DNA from: Pseudomonas mohnii
Lineage (GTDB): Bacteria > Pseudomonadota > Gammaproteobacteria > Pseudomonadales > Pseudomonadaceae
Length of the DNA: 64,000 nt
Assembly: GCF_900105115.1 (NCBI RefSeq)
Contig: NZ_FNRV01000001.1
Span: 4,077,501 to 4,141,500 of the forward strand
Reading direction: 5' to 3'
Shown: positions 5,961-33,703 of the stretch, piece after piece
How positions within the stretch are numbered: the first letter of the stretch is position 1
Layout of the letters: each line of letters opens with the position of its first letter
Notes under the pieces: generated by a model
The model's input: the letters and a program-made list of their open reading frames with translations, nothing else
Told to the model about the DNA's origin: nothing
Databases searched by the model: none
Position numbers and translations under genes: made by a program

Positions 5961-6455
5961 TTACTCTGAATCCTTTGTTGTAACGGTTGGGGATGTTTCG
6001 GTTTCGTCGTCCGCGTACGGATCGGGATAGCCCAATTCTGCAAGCAACGTTCGTTCCAGTGCTTCCATTTCCTCGGCTTCGTCATCATCTATATGGTCGT
6101 AACCCAGTAGATGCAAGCAGCCGTGAATCACCAGATGAGCCCAGTGGGCCTTGAGTTCCTTGCCCTGTTCGGCGGCTTCGCGCTCGACCACGGCCACGCA
6201 GATCACCAGATCGCCCAGCAACGGGATGTCGAGAAACTCGTCGGGTACGTCGGCAGGGAATGACAGGACGTTAGTGGCGTAATCCTTCTGACGCCAGGTG
6301 TGATTCAGTTCGCGGCCTTCGGCTTCGTCGACCAGACGAATGGTCATCTCGGAGTCGGCGCTGCGCTGGCGCAGGGCCAGTTCGCACCATTGGCGGAACT
6401 CGGCCTCGCCGGGGGCGGGCGCCTGGGTAGCCAGTTGCAGATCAAGCTCAAGCAT
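5961..6455 (-). CDS. ybeY: Endoribonuclease YbeY
   Basis: Zinc-dependent RNase for 16S rRNA 3' end maturation and 70S ribosome quality control. The signature [15 protein letters not shown] carries the three zinc-binding His residues. The protein has an extended acidic C-terminal tail. I chose the ATG at 6455 (MLELDLQL), giving 164 aa. It overlaps the end of phoH by 8 nt, which suggests translational coupling; an upstream in-frame ATG at 6482 would lie deeper in phoH. Confidence 0.93.
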
Positions 6456-26573: not shown

Positions 26574-26655
26574 TGTGGGAGCTGGCTTGCCAGCGAAGGC
26601 GTCCTGCAAAACACCACAGATTCCAAACCCTTCGCCAGCAAGCTGGTGCCTACAG
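26574..26655. repeat. REPIN, second of a tandem pair
   Basis: Left half TGTGGGAGCTGGCTTGCCAG and right half CGCCAGCAAGCTGGTGCCTA. The right half reaches into the last codons of the LysR gene (stop at 26650-26652). Confidence 0.8.
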
Positions 26656-27579
26656 GGTCGGGTGTGTTTTTTCGGATTTTTCGGTGAGCTGCTCGCGGCA
26701 GTAATCGGCGAACAGCTGCGCCGGTTTGGTCAATTGGCCGCGTTTCAACCACGCTGCCACCAGTCCTGACCCCGTGACGTCTTCGACAATGTCCACGCAC
26801 ACCACTTTTTGCCCGTCATAGGTGCACTCCGAATGCGGCCGCGTGACCAGGATCGAGAAGCCAAACCCTTGCCCGACCATTCCGCGCACCATCTCGATCG
26901 ACGGTGAGCTGAAGGCAATGTGCGGCGTCAGGCCCAGTTCCTCGAACAGGCTGACGAAGTAGGTCCGGCTCGGCTGTACATCCAGCAGAATCATCGGCTC
27001 CAGGCACAGGTCGCGCAGCGACACTTGCTTCAACTGGGCAAAGCGATGATCCGCCGGCAGCAAGGCATAAGGGCGCTGCGCCGGCATCAGGGGTTCGGTC
27101 TGGATGGTGGCGTCCAGGTCGTGCTCATAGAGAATCGCCAGATCGAAGGTGCCCGAGGTCAGGCCTTGCACCAACTCTTGCTGCTCACCGTCGCGGATCC
27201 GGATTTTTACCCCCGGGTACAGTGCCGAAAACCCCGCAATCAGCTTTGGCAGATACAGCGGTGCGACGGTTTCGAAGCAGCCGATATCGATTTGCCCGGC
27301 CACCACGTCGTTATCGGCCAGAGCGTTCTGTTCGAACTCCTTGGCCATGCGCAGCAGTTCCTGGGCCTTGCGGTAGAAACGTGCCCCGCTGGGCGTCAGG
27401 GAGACGCCCTGGGCGTGATGGCGGATCAGCAGTTGCACGCCGAAGCTGTCTTCCAGGCCTTTGATCGCCGTGGAGATCGCCGGTTGGGCGATATACAACT
27501 TGCGCGAAGCCTCGGCGACGCTGCCGCAATCGACGGTGGTAATGAAGTACTTCAATTGACGCAGGTTGTAGGCGGCCAC
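26650..27579 (-). CDS. LysR regulator of the adjacent amine-catabolic locus
   Basis: LysR-type activator/repressor of about 309 residues: N-terminal HTH (LRQLKYFITTVDCGSVAEAS, then AQPAISTAIKGLED) and a two-lobed co-inducer domain. Most likely start is GTG at 27579, with GAGG upstream; an ATG at 27609 would add ten atypical residues. It diverges from the aldehyde dehydrogenase gene, the classic LysR layout, and the shared 225-nt spacer holds the first copy of the 72-nt block. The co-inducer is probably the amine or its aldehyde; this is inference. Confidence 0.9.
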   Translation of the reverse strand: MAAYNLRQLKYFITTVDCGSVAEASRKLYIAQPAISTAIKGLEDSFGVQLLIRHHAQGVSLTPSGARFYRKAQELLRMAKEFEQNALADNDVVAGQIDIGCFETVAPLYLPKLIAGFSALYPGVKIRIRDGEQQELVQGLTSGTFDLAILYEHDLDATIQTEPLMPAQRPYALLPADHRFAQLKQVSLRDLCLEPMILLDVQPSRTYFVSLFEELGLTPHIAFSSPSIEMVRGMVGQGFGFSILVTRPHSECTYDGQKVVCVDIVEDVTGSGLVAAWLKRGQLTKPAQLFADYCREQLTEKSEKTHPTL

Positions 27580-27699: not shown

Positions 27700-27771
27700 G
27701 CTACCCAGTTTTTTCATCGTCTGCGAAGACATTTTTACTATTTTTCCTCGACACGGGCCTGGGCCACCATC
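27700..27771 (+). promoter_or_regulatory. 72-nt regulatory block, copy 1
   Basis: Begins GCTACCCAGTTTTTTCATC and ends GGGCCACCATC. Aligned without gaps to 30883-30954, 53 of 72 positions match, including 19 consecutive bases at the left end. A GTCT-GCGA-AGAC palindrome sits inside this copy only. It lies in the LysR/aldehyde dehydrogenase spacer, 33 nt before the chosen GTG. Confidence 0.7.
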
Positions 27772-27804
27772 CATGCACAAGAAAAGCCCTTGGAGCATCT
27801 GAAC

Positions 27805-29295
27805 GTGTTCGAGCTTGCATATTGGCAAAACAAGGCCGCTGCGCTGCGGCTACCCGACCAGGCCGTGATCGACGGTAAATCCCGTGCGGCGCAGTCGGGA
27901 CAGACATTCGCGGCCATCAACCCCGCCACCGGCCAGTGCCTGGCCAACGTGGCGGCTTGCGGTGAGGAGGACGTCGACGCAGCGGTGCGCAACGCGCGGC
28001 AGGTGTTCGAAGCCGGCACTTGGGCGGCGCGTTCGCCGAGCGAGCGCAAGCAGGTGCTATTGCGCCTGGCGGATCTGATTCTGGCCCATCGCGAAGAACT
28101 GGCGCTGCTCGATTCGCTGAACATGGGCAAACCCGTCATGGACGCCTACAACATTGACGTGCCGGGCGCCGCCGGGGTGTTTCGCTGGTACGCCGAGAGC
28201 CTCGACAAACTCTACGATCAGGTCGCCCCCAGCGCACAGAACGTGCTGGCGACCATCACCCGCGAAGCGTTGGGCGTGGTCGCGGCCGTGGTGCCCTGGA
28301 ACTTTCCGCTGGATATGGCCGCGTGGAAACTCGCGCCAGCCCTGGCGGCGGGCAACTCGGTAATCCTCAAGCCGGCCGAGCAATCGCCGTTTTCCGCGCT
28401 GCGTCTGGCCGAGCTGGCGCTGGAAGCCGGACTGCCGGCCGGTGTGCTCAACGTGTTGCCGGGGCTTGGCGAACAGACCGGTAAAGCCCTCGGCCTGCAC
28501 CCGGATGTCGATTGCCTGGTGTTCACCGGCTCCACCGAAGTCGGCAAATACTTCATGCAGTACTCGGCGCAATCGAACCTGAAACAGGTATGGCTGGAGT
28601 GCGGCGGCAAGAGTGCGAACCTGGTGTTCGCCGACTGTCAGGACCTGGATCTGGCGGCGCAGAAGGCGGCGTTCGGCATCTTCTTCAATCAGGGTGAAGT
28701 CTGTTCCGCCAACTCGCGGTTATTGGTGCAGCGCTCGATTCACGATGAGTTTGTCGAGCGCCTCAAAGCCCAGGCCGAGTGCTGGCAGCCGGGCGATCCT
28801 CTGGACCCGTCGAGCACTGCCGGCGCCATCGTCGACAGCCGCCAGACGGCACGCATCATGACGTTCATCCAGCAAGCCGGGCAGCAGGGCGCGACCCGCG
28901 TCTGTGGTGGCCGGCAGTCGATCTTCAATGGCTCCGACAACTTTATCCAGCCGACCATTTTTACCGGCGTGAGCCCGGACATGCCGCTGTTTCGCGATGA
29001 GGTGTTCGGCCCGGTGCTGGCGGTCACGGCGTTCGATGACGAGGCCCACGCCTTGCAACTGGCCAACGACAGCGTCTACGGTCTGGCGGCGTCGCTGTGG
29101 ACCGACGACCTCAATCGCGCCCACCGCGTGGCGCGACAATTGCGAGCCGGTACCGTGTCGGTCAACAGCGTTGATGCGCTGGACGTGACCGTGCCTTTCG
29201 GCGGTGGCAAACAGTCCGGTTTTGGCCGTGACCTGTCGCTGCACTCATTCGATAAATACACCCAGTTGAAGACCACCTGGTTTCAATTGCGCTGA
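27805..29295 (+). CDS. PuuC/KauB-like aldehyde dehydrogenase
   Basis: NAD(P)-dependent aldehyde dehydrogenase, 496 residues, full length. Catalytic Cys300 in NQGEVCSANSR and Glu265 in WLECGGKSAN; cofactor segment VVPWNFPLDMAAWKLAP and FTGSTEVGKY. It resembles the aminoaldehyde dehydrogenases of polyamine and amine catabolism (gamma-glutamyl-gamma-aminobutyraldehyde type). GTG at 27805 with GGAG at 27792-27795 gives the family's usual N-terminus; a TTG at 27790 is possible. It ends 21 nt before the aminotransferase, whose aldehyde product it presumably oxidises. Confidence 0.9.
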   Translation: MFELAYWQNKAAALRLPDQAVIDGKSRAAQSGQTFAAINPATGQCLANVAACGEEDVDAAVRNARQVFEAGTWAARSPSERKQVLLRLADLILAHREELALLDSLNMGKPVMDAYNIDVPGAAGVFRWYAESLDKLYDQVAPSAQNVLATITREALGVVAAVVPWNFPLDMAAWKLAPALAAGNSVILKPAEQSPFSALRLAELALEAGLPAGVLNVLPGLGEQTGKALGLHPDVDCLVFTGSTEVGKYFMQYSAQSNLKQVWLECGGKSANLVFADCQDLDLAAQKAAFGIFFNQGEVCSANSRLLVQRSIHDEFVERLKAQAECWQPGDPLDPSSTAGAIVDSRQTARIMTFIQQAGQQGATRVCGGRQSIFNGSDNFIQPTIFTGVSPDMPLFRDEVFGPVLAVTAFDDEAHALQLANDSVYGLAASLWTDDLNRAHRVARQLRAGTVSVNSVDALDVTVPFGGGKQSGFGRDLSLHSFDKYTQLKTTWFQLR

Positions 29296-29316
29296 TAACA
29301 AAATGGAGAACTGGCG

Positions 29317-30687
29317 ATGACCACCCCACGTGAAACCCGCGACTACCAGGCCGCCGACGCCGCGCACCACATCCACGCATTTGTCGATCAAAAGGCACTC
29401 AACGAGGAAGGGCCCCGGGTGATGGTCCGTGGCGAGCGCCTGCACCTGTGGGACAACGACGGTCGGCGTTATCTCGACGGCATGTCCGGGCTGTGGTGCA
29501 CCAACCTCGGCTACGGGCGCAAGGACCTGGCGTTGGCGGCGAGCCAGCAGTTGGAACAGTTGCCGTACTACAACATGTTTTTCCACACCACTCACCCGCA
29601 GGTGATCGAGCTTTCCGAGCTGTTGTTCAGCCTGTTGCCGGGTCACTACAGCCACGCGATCTACACCAACTCCGGCTCTGAAGCCAACGAAGTGTTGATC
29701 CGCACGGTGCGGCGTTATTGGCAGGTGCTCGGCAAGCCCGAGAAGAAAATCATGATCGGCCGCTGGAACGGCTACCACGGTTCGACCCTGGCCGCGACGG
29801 CGCTCGGGGGCATGAAGTTCATGCACGAAATGGGCGGCATGATCCCCGACATCGAGCACATCGACGAGCCGTACTTCTTCGCCCACGAAGGTAACCTGAC
29901 GCCGGCCGAATTCGGTCTGCGCGCGGCGCAGCAACTGGAAGCGAAGATTCTCGAACTCGGCGCGGACAAGGTCGCCGGCTTCATCGCCGAGCCGTTCCAG
30001 GGCGCGGGCGGCATGATCTTCCCGCCGGAAAGCTACTGGCCGGAAATCCAGCGCATCTGCCGCAAGTACGACGTGCTGTTGTGCGCCGACGAAGTGATCG
30101 GCGGCTTCGGTCGTACTGGCGAATGGTTCGCCCACGAGTACTTCGGTTTCGAGCCGGACACCCTGTCCATCGCCAAGGGCCTGACCTCGGGCTACATCCC
30201 GATGGGAGGCCTGGTGCTGTCGAAAAAAATGGCCCGGGTGCTGGTGGAGCAGGGCGGGGTGTTCGCCCACGGCCTGACCTATTCCGGGCACCCGGTGGCG
30301 GCGGCGGTGGCGATTGCCAACCTCAAGGCATTGCGCGATGAAGGGGTGGTGACGCGGGTCAAGGATGACATCGGTCCGTACCTGCAACAGTGCCTGCGCG
30401 AGGTGTTCGGCAATCACCCGCTGGTGGGCGATATCCAGGGCACGGGCATGGTGGCGGCACTGCAACTGGCCGAAGACAAGACCAGCCGCAAACGCTTTGC
30501 CAACGAGAACGACATCGCCTGGCGCTGCCGCACGATTGGCTTTGAAGAAGGGGTGATCATTCGTTCGACGCTGGGGCGGATGATCATGGCGCCAGCGTTG
30601 ATTGCCAGCCGTGAAGAGATCGATGAGCTGGTGGGCAAGACCCTGAAAGCGGTCGATCGTACGGCGCAGGAATACGGCCGGCTCTGA
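29317..30687 (+). CDS. Class III omega-aminotransferase (SpuC-like)
   Basis: PLP-dependent aminotransferase of 456 residues related to putrescine/omega-amino acid:pyruvate aminotransferases. PLP Lys287 in SIAKGLTSGYIPMGG; other motifs are TNSGSEANEVLIR, GRWNGYHGSTLAA and LCADEVIGGFGRTGEW. GGAG is well placed before the ATG. It forms an operon with the upstream aldehyde dehydrogenase: deamination of a primary amine to an aldehyde, then oxidation to the acid. The substrate could be a diamine, beta-alanine, taurine-like or another omega-amine; the sequence alone does not decide. Confidence 0.9.
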   Translation: MTTPRETRDYQAADAAHHIHAFVDQKALNEEGPRVMVRGERLHLWDNDGRRYLDGMSGLWCTNLGYGRKDLALAASQQLEQLPYYNMFFHTTHPQVIELSELLFSLLPGHYSHAIYTNSGSEANEVLIRTVRRYWQVLGKPEKKIMIGRWNGYHGSTLAATALGGMKFMHEMGGMIPDIEHIDEPYFFAHEGNLTPAEFGLRAAQQLEAKILELGADKVAGFIAEPFQGAGGMIFPPESYWPEIQRICRKYDVLLCADEVIGGFGRTGEWFAHEYFGFEPDTLSIAKGLTSGYIPMGGLVLSKKMARVLVEQGGVFAHGLTYSGHPVAAAVAIANLKALRDEGVVTRVKDDIGPYLQQCLREVFGNHPLVGDIQGTGMVAALQLAEDKTSRKRFANENDIAWRCRTIGFEEGVIIRSTLGRMIMAPALIASREEIDELVGKTLKAVDRTAQEYGRL

Positions 30688-30712
30688 CACCGCCTGAAGG
30701 TCCTGCGGACCT

Positions 30713-30804
30713 TATCGCGGGCAAGCCACGCTCCCACAGGTTATGTGTCGTGCTTAAACGTGCGACCGACACATGACCTGTGGGAGCGGGCTTGCCCGCG
30801 ATTG
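30713..30804. repeat. REPIN
   Basis: Left half ATCGCGGGCAAGCCACGCTC and right half TGGGAGCGGGCTTGCCCGCG, inverted, after the aminotransferase gene. The left half carries the CACGCT variant, the right half the canonical one. Inner flanks GTGTCG...CGACAC extend the pairing. Confidence 0.85.
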
Positions 30805-30882
30805 CTTTTGCCCATTCAACACCCCTTTCATTTTTGCACCCACCCCGTGCACCCCCTCCAACGCTGCCCTTTTTCCGCGCAC

Positions 30883-30954
30883 GCTACCCAGTTTTTTCAT
30901 CATTCCCATCGACATATTTCCTCATTTTCCTGAGCCCTGCCTTGGGCCAACATC
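30883..30954 (+). promoter_or_regulatory. 72-nt regulatory block, copy 2
   Basis: Begins with the same 19 bases GCTACCCAGTTTTTTCATC and ends GGGCCAACATC, the same length as copy 1. It lies 126 nt before the substrate-binding protein gene of the ABC transporter. Differences cluster in positions 20-28 and 50-58, the pattern expected when two protein-contact segments are conserved around freer spacers. Confidence 0.7.
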
Positions 30955-31079: not shown

Positions 31080-32066
31080 ATGATCAAGTCCTTGCTTACC
31101 CGCGTTACTTATCCACTGGCGGTCACCGCCATCGCCGCGACGGTCGCCACCAGCGCCCAGGCCGGCACCCTGTCCATCGGTCACACCACCTGGGTCGGTT
31201 ACGGCACCCTCTACCTGGCCCAGGACCTGGGCTACTTCAAGGAAAACGGTTTGACCGTGGAACTGCCCGTCGTCGAAGAGGCTTCGATGTACATGGCTGC
31301 GCAAGCGTCGGGCGAGTTGTCGGGCTCGGCTTCGACCATCGACGAAGTGCTGAAATACCGTCCGCAATTCTGCTTCAAGGCGGTGGCCGCGCTGGATGAC
31401 AGCCATGGTGGCGACGGCGTGCTGGTGGGCAAGGACGTCAAGAGCCTGCAGGAGCTCAAGGGCAAGTCCGTGGCGGTCAATGAAGGCTCGACCTCGCAGT
31501 TCTGGTTGTCTTACCTGCTGAAAAAACATGGCATGACCATGAGCGACATCACTGTGCAGAACATGACGGCTGACGACGCCGCCACCGCCTTCATCGCCGG
31601 TCGCGTGCCCGCCGCCGTGACCTGGGAACCGCACCTGTCGATGGTCCGCGACAAGCAACAGGGCAAGGTGCTGATCGACAGCAGCAGCACGCCGGGCGTG
31701 ATCGTCGACGTGGTGGCACTCAACTGCACCGTCATCGAAAAACAACCGGAAGACGTCAAGGCCCTGGTGGCCGGTCTGTACAAAGCGGTGCAGTACACCA
31801 AGGACCACCCGGAGCAGGCCTACACCATCATGGCCAAGGGCGTCGGCGGCTACCTCGCCGATCCGAAGGAGCTGGCGGCGGCCGCAAAAGGCGTGCGCTT
31901 CTACGATCAGGCCATGAGCGAAAAACTGCTCGGCTCGCCGGGCAAGCCGGGTGACAGCGAACCGCTGATCAAGCTGGCCAACGAGACCGCCAGCGAGTTG
32001 CAGGGCAAGCCTTACAACGTCAGCAATGACGACCTGATCGACAACCGTTTCGTCAGTCCGCTCTAG
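31080..32066 (+). CDS. NitT/TauT-type ABC substrate-binding protein
   Basis: Periplasmic binding protein of 328 residues with a signal peptide (TYPLAVTAIAATVATSAQAG, cleavage near residue 28) and an NMT1/SsuA-like fold: LSIGHTTWVGYGTLYLAQDL, GYFKENGLTVEL, SASTIDEVLKYRP, VAVNEGSTSQFWLSYLLKK. Relatives bind sulfonates, nitrate, pyrimidines or other small solutes. ATG at 31080 with GGGAG upstream. First gene of a three-gene transporter operon behind regulatory block copy 2, so its ligand is probably the substrate of the aminotransferase pathway. Confidence 0.92.
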   Translation: MIKSLLTRVTYPLAVTAIAATVATSAQAGTLSIGHTTWVGYGTLYLAQDLGYFKENGLTVELPVVEEASMYMAAQASGELSGSASTIDEVLKYRPQFCFKAVAALDDSHGGDGVLVGKDVKSLQELKGKSVAVNEGSTSQFWLSYLLKKHGMTMSDITVQNMTADDAATAFIAGRVPAAVTWEPHLSMVRDKQQGKVLIDSSSTPGVIVDVVALNCTVIEKQPEDVKALVAGLYKAVQYTKDHPEQAYTIMAKGVGGYLADPKELAAAAKGVRFYDQAMSEKLLGSPGKPGDSEPLIKLANETASELQGKPYNVSNDDLIDNRFVSPL

Positions 32067-32075
32067 GAGGTCTGC

Positions 32076-32879
32076 ATGTTCAAGCGCAATTCATGGCTGA
32101 GCCGCTGCATCACGCCCAAGACCGGCCTGCCGGTGTCGGTGATCTGGAGTGCGAGCGGCCTGGCCTGGGTCTTGTTGGTCGGCCTCTGGGCCGGCTTGTC
32201 CTACGGCGGCGTGGTGCCGGGCATGTTCCTGCCGACACCGGGCGCCGTGGTCGAGGCCGCCGTGCGCCTGGGTCGCGACGGCACGCTCGGCCAGCATGTC
32301 TGGGCCAGCGTCGAAGTGGTGATGGTCGGTTTTATTGTCTCGTCCCTGGTCGCCGTGCCGCTGGGGTTGCTGATGGGCAGCTTTCGCATCGTCCAGGCGT
32401 TTCTCGAGCCGATGGTCAACTTCATCCGCTACCTGCCGGTCACGTCCTTCGTGCCGCTGTTCATTCTGTGGATCGGCATCGGTCTGGAGCAGCGGGTGTC
32501 GGTGATTATCTTCGGCGTGTTCTTCCAGCAACTGGTGATGATCGCGGATGTGTCCAAGGGCATCTCCAAGGACTTGATCAACGCCTCCTACACCCTTGGC
32601 TCTAACCGTCGTGACGCCGTGCTGCACGTAATTGCCCCGGCGTCCTTGCCGGGCGTGCTCGACACCCTGCGCGTGACCATGGGCTGGGCCTGGACTTACC
32701 TGGTCGTCGCTGAACTGGTCGCGGCCTCCAGTGGCCTGGGTTACCTGAGCCTCAAAGCCATGCGCGGCTTTCAAGTGGATGTGATTTTCCTGGCCATCGC
32801 GATCATCGGCCTGCTGGGCCTCGCGACCGATCAACTGTTCCGCTTCCTACGTCTGAGGATCACCGCATGGGCTCAGTAA
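32076..32879 (+). CDS. ABC transporter permease
   Basis: Inner-membrane BPD-type permease of 267 residues with about six helices and the EAA loop (SKGISKDLINASYTLGSNRR). It belongs to the SsuC/TauC-like group. Its Shine-Dalgarno AGGAGG overlaps the stop region of the binding-protein gene 9 nt upstream, and its own stop lies inside the following ATPase gene, so the three genes are translationally linked. Confidence 0.93.
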   Translation: MFKRNSWLSRCITPKTGLPVSVIWSASGLAWVLLVGLWAGLSYGGVVPGMFLPTPGAVVEAAVRLGRDGTLGQHVWASVEVVMVGFIVSSLVAVPLGLLMGSFRIVQAFLEPMVNFIRYLPVTSFVPLFILWIGIGLEQRVSVIIFGVFFQQLVMIADVSKGISKDLINASYTLGSNRRDAVLHVIAPASLPGVLDTLRVTMGWAWTYLVVAELVAASSGLGYLSLKAMRGFQVDVIFLAIAIIGLLGLATDQLFRFLRLRITAWAQ

Positions 32880-33703
32880 CCGCTGCCAATCATCGATTCG
32901 CCACCCCCCAGGCCACTGCGGTGCAGGCCGCGCCACGACTGCAAGTGGACAAGGTCAGCCTGCGTTACAAGAAACCCGATGGCGGCACGTTTACCGCGCT
33001 GGAAGAGGTGTCGTTCGACGTGCCGGATCAGCAATTCGCCGTGCTGGTCGGCCCTTCGGGGTGCGGTAAGTCGAGCCTGCTGTACCTCACGGCCGGCCTG
33101 AACGAGCCCACTTCGGGCGAGATTTATGTGGGGGGCCAGCAAGTGCAGGGGCCCGGTGCGGATCGCGGCATGGTGTTCCAGAGCTACACGCTGTTCCCGT
33201 GGCTGACCGTGCGCCAGAACGTCGAGTTCGGACTCAAGCGGCGTGGCATGCCGGCGGCGCAACGCAAGGACATTGTCGACTACTACGTCAACGAAGTCGG
33301 CCTGAGCAACTTCGCCGACAACTACGCCAAGCAGTTGTCCGGCGGCATGATGCAGCGTGTGGCGATCGCTCGCGCGCTGGCCAACGACCCGCAGATTCTG
33401 CTGATGGACGAGCCCTTCGGTGCCCTCGACAGCCAGACGCGCCTGCAAATGCAGCAGCTGCTGTTGCGGGTCTGGGGCCACAGCAAGAAAACCGTGTTGT
33501 TCGTCACCCATGACATCGACGAAGCGATTCTGCTGGGTGACCGGGTCTATGTGATGGGCGCACGTCCCGGGCGGATCAAGCAGATTCTCGACGTGCCGAT
33601 CGAGCGCCCGCGCACGCTGGACATGGTCATGGAGCACTCGTTCATTGACATGAAACGCAAGATTTTCGGCTTGCTGCATGACGACCTGGAAGAGGTGCAT
33701 TGA
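32867..33703 (+). CDS. ABC transporter ATP-binding protein
   Basis: ATPase of the NitT/TauT importer, 278 residues. Walker A VGPSGCGKSS, signature LSGGMMQRVAIARAL, Walker B LLMDEPFGALD and H-loop FVTHDIDEA. The ATG at 32867 overlaps the permease gene by 13 nt. It completes the importer; no further gene follows before a REP hairpin. Confidence 0.95.
   Translation: MGSVTAANHRFATPQATAVQAAPRLQVDKVSLRYKKPDGGTFTALEEVSFDVPDQQFAVLVGPSGCGKSSLLYLTAGLNEPTSGEIYVGGQQVQGPGADRGMVFQSYTLFPWLTVRQNVEFGLKRRGMPAAQRKDIVDYYVNEVGLSNFADNYAKQLSGGMMQRVAIARALANDPQILLMDEPFGALDSQTRLQMQQLLLRVWGHSKKTVLFVTHDIDEAILLGDRVYVMGARPGRIKQILDVPIERPRTLDMVMEHSFIDMKRKIFGLLHDDLEEVH

Follow-up and report, generated by a model that had tools for sequence, protein, structure and literature searches.

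In Pseudomonas aeruginosa PAO1 the LysR-type regulator HinK is the reported activator of histamine catabolism; it responds to imidazole-4-acetate, its reported co-inducer, and besides hinD, whose induction by histamine depends on it, it controls hinFLHG and its own expression (PMC8231116). In gel shifts HinK, responding to imidazole-4-acetate, bound the promoters of hinD and hinF, and a motif common to the two was identified as the HinK operator (PMC8231116). HinK, its operator and the hin pathway are already known. The subject of this report is a 72-base block that stands twice in a 64,000-nucleotide stretch of the Pseudomonas mohnii genome (RefSeq assembly GCF_900105115.1, contig NZ_FNRV01000001.1, positions 4,077,501 to 4,141,500, forward strand), referred to below as the window: once before orthologs of hinD and hinC, and once before the genes of an ATP-binding cassette (ABC) importer. 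Both copies are very probably promoters activated by the HinK protein encoded beside them, one serving the predicted histamine-breakdown operon hinD-hinC and the other the importer.

The window resembles the HinK-controlled hinD and hinF promoters of P. aeruginosa (PA0218; hinDAC, hinFLHG) in its orthologous LysR, hinD and hinC genes and in its 72-base block, which also stands before hinD in a genome (G414) with a 99%-identical HinK. It differs in having a downstream ABC importer with a block of its own and no HinA permease in the operon. The block is likened to the reported P. aeruginosa operator by promoter and regulator. Pseudomonas putida U (hinABCD, hinFLHG, hinIJ, hinK) has, by name, the same enzymes and regulator, but unlike the window its permease is HinA, and the available part of that account names no ABC importer (PMC8231116). 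The importer under HinK promoters, the reuse of the block with several transporter families and the definition of the promoter as 72 bases appear to be new.

Two block copies and the adjacent regulator

An earlier note, made from the letters of the window alone, had described a gap-free 72-nucleotide repeat, and a recount agrees with it: the ungapped alignment of positions 27700-27771 with 30883-30954 has 53 of 72 bases identical, and the first 19 bases at the left end are all the same. The next-best ungapped match of either copy within the 64-kb window reaches 35 of 72 (mean about 18, standard deviation 3.6). By a rough binomial reckoning in which every pair of positions in 64 kb counts, some 1e-6 matches of this quality would be expected. 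The 19-base start of the block occurs only twice when up to three mismatches are allowed, and never in 100 shuffles. The features of the locus are as follows.

27700..27771, forward strand: block copy 1, predicted HinK operator and promoter of the hinD-hinC operon (alignment, conservation)
27742..27747, forward strand: predicted -35-like TTTTCC, block positions 43-48 of copy 1, with 17 bases between it and the -10-like element
27765..27770, forward strand: predicted -10-like CACCAT, block positions 66-71 of copy 1; second, fifth and sixth bases A, A and T invariant in 58 sites
30883..30954, forward strand: block copy 2, predicted HinK operator and promoter of the ABC importer operon (alignment, conservation)
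30925..30930, forward strand: predicted -35-like TTTTCC, copy 2
30948..30953, forward strand: predicted -10-like CAACAT, copy 2
26650..27579, reverse strand: hinK ortholog, LysR-type activator, GTG start (Pfam HTH_1 and LysR_substrate; PDB 3fzv and 6m5f matches)
27805..29295, forward strand: hinD ortholog, aldehyde dehydrogenase, 79% identity with the hinK-adjacent gene of G414
29317..30687, forward strand: hinC ortholog, class-III aminotransferase, 84% identical in G414
31080..32066, forward strand: ABC importer substrate-binding protein, NMT1/THI5-like (family scan)
32076..32879, forward strand: ABC importer permease (family scan)
32867..33703, forward strand: ABC importer ATPase (family scan)

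Copy 1 ends 33 bases before the dehydrogenase GTG at 27805, and copy 2 ends 125 bases before the binding-protein ATG at 31080. In close relatives as in the window, the aminotransferase and importer genes adjoin on one strand, and a block lies between them nonetheless. This fits the claim of the earlier note that each copy stands upstream of a separate transcription unit of one pathway, the units being hinD-hinC and the ABC importer. Family scans alone label these genes as an aldehyde dehydrogenase, an aminotransferase and a sulfonate- or taurine-like ABC importer; a pathway and a regulator can now be named for an operon pair that carried only such labels. Two other pathways, polyamine metabolism and thiamine-pyrimidine salvage (the latter suggested by the family names NMT1/THI5 and NCS1), were dropped once the gene set had been matched to PA0218-PA0222.

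The adjacent LysR protein, which the note had proposed as the protein to test, is by its sequence the ortholog of HinK, scoring 584 bits over 306 residues against PDB 3fzv and 583 bits against 6m5f. The 3fzv sequence was also searched in 25 genomes of a neighbouring genus, and G414 alone among them has a gene 99% identical to it. This gene adjoins genes for an aldehyde dehydrogenase, an APC permease, an aminotransferase and a binding protein, the same genes and arrangement as described for PA0218-PA0222 (PMC2542419, PMC8231116). The block before hinD in G414 matches copy 1 at 50 of 72 positions and keeps all 18 of the conserved positions checked, while a diverged block before hinF matches at 37 of 72 and keeps 14 of the 18. 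Their capped scores are 69.9 and 28.2, respectively; among about 2000 background segments taken from the window the highest score is 7.5. Since the regulator is a HinK ortholog, the block is present at hinD and, diverged, at hinF of G414, and blocks and HinK occur in the same genomes (see below), the two copies in the window are most likely HinK-dependent promoters.

Conservation and anatomy of the block

The block was followed in relatives through the importer binding-protein gene, using the best 80 of 172 loci from a search with that gene, nearly all of them in Pseudomonas. Every one of the 80 (81 counting the window) has a block before the binding-protein gene, and most of them, through several gene arrangements, have one before the dehydrogenase gene as well. 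With 40 loci from further genomes added, the resulting 120 loci contain 195 blocks at a score cut-off of 12. The dehydrogenase gene follows 93 of these, its start codon lying 31-59 bases beyond the end of the block, and the importer binding-protein gene follows 81, at a distance of 107-130 bases. Other targets are an APC permease (4), an aminotransferase (2) and, for weaker variants of the block, a hinF-like flavoprotein (5) and a DUF1028 gene (2). The remaining 8, at L149-L154, L157 and L158, have no mapped downstream gene and lie between hinK and a divergent NCS1-type permease gene. No block scoring at least 12 was found in 8 of the 120 loci.

Conservation falls off at the edges of the block. 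The two copies of the same genome (79 genomes, window included) share on average 63% of their bases inside the block, compared with 26% over the preceding 72 bases and 31% over the 30 that follow. Orthologous blocks of two distant clades are 60% identical on the dehydrogenase side and 69% on the importer side, against 28-30% in the upstream flank; the importer-side downstream flank is 44% identical. The block is thus kept at this locus in relatives, a point on which the earlier note had staked its reading.

The number of blocks follows the number of transcription units. Where dehydrogenase, aminotransferase and importer genes form a contiguous run on one strand there is a single block (8 loci: L127, L129-L131, L135-L138), whereas split gene sets have a block for each unit, three in the case of L120. 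In another genus the importer operon carries its own block about 120 kb (G305) or 101 kb (G409) away from hinK, and APC permease genes in L128 and L132-L134 bear a block with no hinK in the stretch examined. One block per transcription unit, even far from hinK, is what would be predicted for the operator-promoter of a regulon.

In promoters of LysR-type activators, two sites, one for recognition and one for activation, precede the -35 element. The block is like them in its conserved zones upstream of a predicted weak promoter, and it contains a T-N11-A pair, which may well be due to chance; unlike typical promoters of this kind, it is conserved across all 72 bases, and its alignment is gap-free in 57 of 58 sites (L084 has a one-base insertion). 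The 58 aligned sites mutually differ by at least 6 bases, and 17 of their columns are invariant (T12-T15, T18, A30, T35-T37, T40, T43-T45, T61, A67, A70 and T71). A weight matrix was built from 159 sites, leaving out four candidates with fewer than 43 of 72 matches (L009@7711, L074@1090, L075@985 and L083@2357), the last three of which are diverged copies before a DUF1028 gene. Positions 43-48 read TTTTCC in 108 of the 159 sites, and positions 66-71, 17 bases further on, read CAACAT, CACCAT, GACTAT, GACCAT or CACTAT in 156; diverged versions of the block have a similar right end (ACAAT, AGAAT). The combination TTTTCC-17-CAnnAT looks like a weak sigma-70-type promoter, in which the -10 element would keep its second, fifth and sixth bases without the first T. 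Transcription would then start at about 27777 and 30960, and a short leader containing GGAG would precede the GTG at 27805.

The paired protein or polymerase contacts suggested in the earlier note fit this reading. Its two variable stretches stand in part: among the 159 sites positions 49-52, 54, 56-58 and 60 carry little information, while 53, 55 and 59 are better kept, and in the stretch 20-28 there is variation at 21 and 23 but good conservation at 24 and 25.

These properties can be combined in a possible mechanism. HinK would bind the upstream part of the block, positions 8-48, with its T-tracts and invariant T18-N11-A30, and positions 43-48 and 66-71 would form a weak sigma-70-type promoter whose poor -35 element and first -10 base make an activator necessary. 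Imidazole-4-acetate, the product of HinC and HinD, would in this way raise the enzymes and the importer together.

HinK co-occurrence and competing explanations

The joint occurrence of block and HinK was surveyed in 298 genomes of the genus (block model at E ≤ 0.05, HinK ortholog at E ≤ 1e-70) and in a family sample of 148 genomes (block at E ≤ 0.01). In the genus the block was found in 156 genomes and HinK in 193, with both in 153, the block only in 3, HinK only in 40 and neither in 102. The association is strong (p = 4.7e-42 by Fisher's exact test, uncorrected for relatedness). The family sample has 48 genomes with the block and 60 with a HinK-like gene, 46 of them shared. Ten of the 14 family genomes with only the HinK-like gene have just 52-55% identity to HinK, and these genes may, judging from that divergence, encode other LysR proteins. 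Among the 80 loci of the importer search, 77 contain a HinK ortholog, in 76 of them at most 2.5 kb from a block.

The strongest competitor to HinK-dependent promoters is that the block is bound by a global DNA-bending protein or by a different regulator of the pathway, such as a counterpart of HinB or HinJ (both reported for P. putida U), and that HinK merely co-occurs with the genes. Three regulators are named in P. putida U (PMC8231116), and the T-tracts might suit a DNA-bending protein. We nevertheless consider this improbable, given the close linkage of hinK to the block in those 76 loci, the reported gel shifts at hinD and hinF, which are those of HinK (PMC8231116), and the presence of HinK in every inspected genome whose blocks are unlinked to hinK (G305, G409, G428, G263, G273, G275, G199, G110 and G173). 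An RNA leader element, either a riboswitch or an attenuator, would account for a block that stands before each operon in sense orientation. Its probability appears very small: RNAalifold predicted no conserved base pairs on the 58 sequences, Rfam gave no match on either block at E ≤ 1, and the conserved block, whose right end is -10-like, stops 33 and 125 bases short of the start codons.

Two further explanations have next to no probability. A sigma-54 promoter with upstream activator sites might be read into the GC-rich right end with its GG dinucleotides, and GG-N10-GC does occur on the reverse strand of 26 of the 159 sites; on the forward strand it occurs in just 3, which bears out the earlier view that the block is not a sigma-54 -24/-12 promoter. 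Two similar copies 3.2 kb apart could also be the product of a recent duplication, or belong to a functionless dispersed repeat. However, neither blastn nor the 58-site sequence model at E ≤ 10 found a third full copy in the 6.59-Mb genome, so the block is not the dispersed repeat that the earlier note had raised against itself, and each side is separately conserved between the two clades to the extent given above. Moreover, the similarity of the two copies is about equal within and between genomes (0.633 versus 0.620). A permutation test found slightly higher similarity within genomes in one clade (0.635 versus 0.629, p = 0.001) and p = 0.12 in the other; nothing is built upon this difference.

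Several results weigh against the assignment of the block to HinK. Three genus genomes have a block without a HinK match, two of them at block E values of 0.04-0.05 and one in a genome 73% complete, and the two block-only genomes of the family sample are partial weak matches. Conversely, 40 HinK genomes have no block at E ≤ 0.05. Fourteen of these were inspected (L140-L153): nine have a diverged block, before hinF (L142-L145) or before the NCS1 permease (L149-L153), and the other five have none in the stretch examined. The genomes are not phylogenetically independent, and the matches of the block model (R1) at importer loci are partly circular because the model was trained on loci obtained through the importer gene. 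The pair T18-N11-A30 is weak evidence, as a T/A pair at this spacing is likely to arise by chance when 17 columns are invariant. In G414 the model at E ≤ 0.01 finds only the hinD site, and HinK is also reported to bind T-N11-A boxes at pvdS, pqsA and pqsR (PMC10912698); the block is therefore not the only kind of reported HinK site. Lastly, the genome of the window has hinF, DUF1028 and M20-hydrolase genes (81%, 69% and 81% identical to the queries, G000:C1 near 5.88 Mb), and no clear block was found at this hinF operon, where a weak, diverged candidate 33 bases upstream scores -37.6 or, with capped penalties, -2.1, which falls between the background's 95% and 99% points.

The importer and other targets of the block

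HinA, the APC permease encoded by PA0220, is reported to be the histamine transporter (PMC8231116, PMC2542419). The genome of the window lacks a close HinA, its best match being 32% identical. When the importer binding protein is counted at E ≤ 1e-100 and HinA at E ≤ 1e-150, the 193 HinK genomes include 71 with the binding protein only, 28 with HinA only, 3 with both (11.9 expected) and 91 with neither, a near-exclusion with p = 1.5e-4, uncorrected for relatedness. In all, the binding protein was found in 74 of the 298 Pseudomonas genomes. HinK is present in all 74 importer genomes and all 31 HinA genomes, and the block at E ≤ 1e-5 in 74 of 74 importer genomes, on which type of locus its model was trained; it was not found in 5 of the 31 HinA genomes.

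The ABC importer is predicted to replace HinA, since the two rarely co-occur and HinA is the reported transporter, and the promoter it shares with hinD-hinC likewise points to histamine as its predicted substrate. A place in the HinK regulon is in itself no proof of substrate, because the P. aeruginosa cluster also encodes PA0222, a binding protein from a different family, which was found to bind gamma-aminobutyric acid and not histamine (PMC6829864). A search limited to open-access papers on Pseudomonas histamine uptake brought up no ABC histamine importer by name, which is no proof of absence in print. Histamine is a testable substrate for the importer.

We are somewhat inclined to regard the 72-base block as a portable HinK promoter module under which unrelated histamine uptake systems have been swapped in Pseudomonas, an NMT1/THI5-type ABC importer here, and the APC permease HinA or an NCS1-type permease elsewhere. 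The importer would then be the first ABC histamine importer in these bacteria, and the locus would exemplify how a regulator can keep its promoter in use as the transporters are exchanged. With the promoter model, a large part of the histamine regulon becomes readable from sequence throughout the family, even where a transporter lies far from hinK.

Diverged forms of the block were also listed before other genes, excluding distances of thousands of bases that come from genes cut at the end of a locus. In a second class an A-tract (ACAAAAA or a close form) replaces ACATATTT and is followed by GTTTCGC, ATTTCGC or a close form. It occurs before DUF1028 in L073-L075, L078-L080, L083-L085, L088 and L120, mostly at 85-90 bases (30 in L075 and L083), and before hinF in L125, L135, L136, L139, L142-L145, L169, L171 and L178. 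A third class lies between hinK and the divergent NCS1-type permease gene in L149-L158 and L171, with AACAAACTTACTAATTT in L149-L158. The permease genes at L149-L154, L157 and L158 are 92-100% identical between loci, and the position of the block suggests that the NCS1 permease is another HinK target. A block-like sequence stands before hinK itself at a nearly constant distance of 43-44 bases (L073, L074, L076-L078, L081, L082, L085 and L088; scores from -0.2 to 16.6), in agreement with the reported self-regulation of HinK.

Some minor observations complete the survey. A conserved AT-rich stretch, CAGCTTAATAATATTTT or a close form, lies about 20-45 bases before hinF in L161:8595-8666, L086, L133 and L149-L158 and is too unlike the block to be called one. 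G058 has a truncated binding-protein gene (C21:33558-34103) that matches residues 147-328 only and contains one internal stop codon. In the window, an inverted REP-like repeat (30724-30793) separates the aminotransferase gene from block copy 2; matches of Rfam microRNA models to this hairpin in the scan at E ≤ 1 are weak, far below the cut-offs and surely due to chance. L168 has an additional block at 6348, some 1 kb ahead of the one that serves the dehydrogenase, with no mapped target. Three loci of one neighbouring genus (L164:6253-6324, L167:5749-5820 and L180:5224-5295) have a strong block before a gene that resembles the APC permease query along part of its sequence, at only 26-27% identity.

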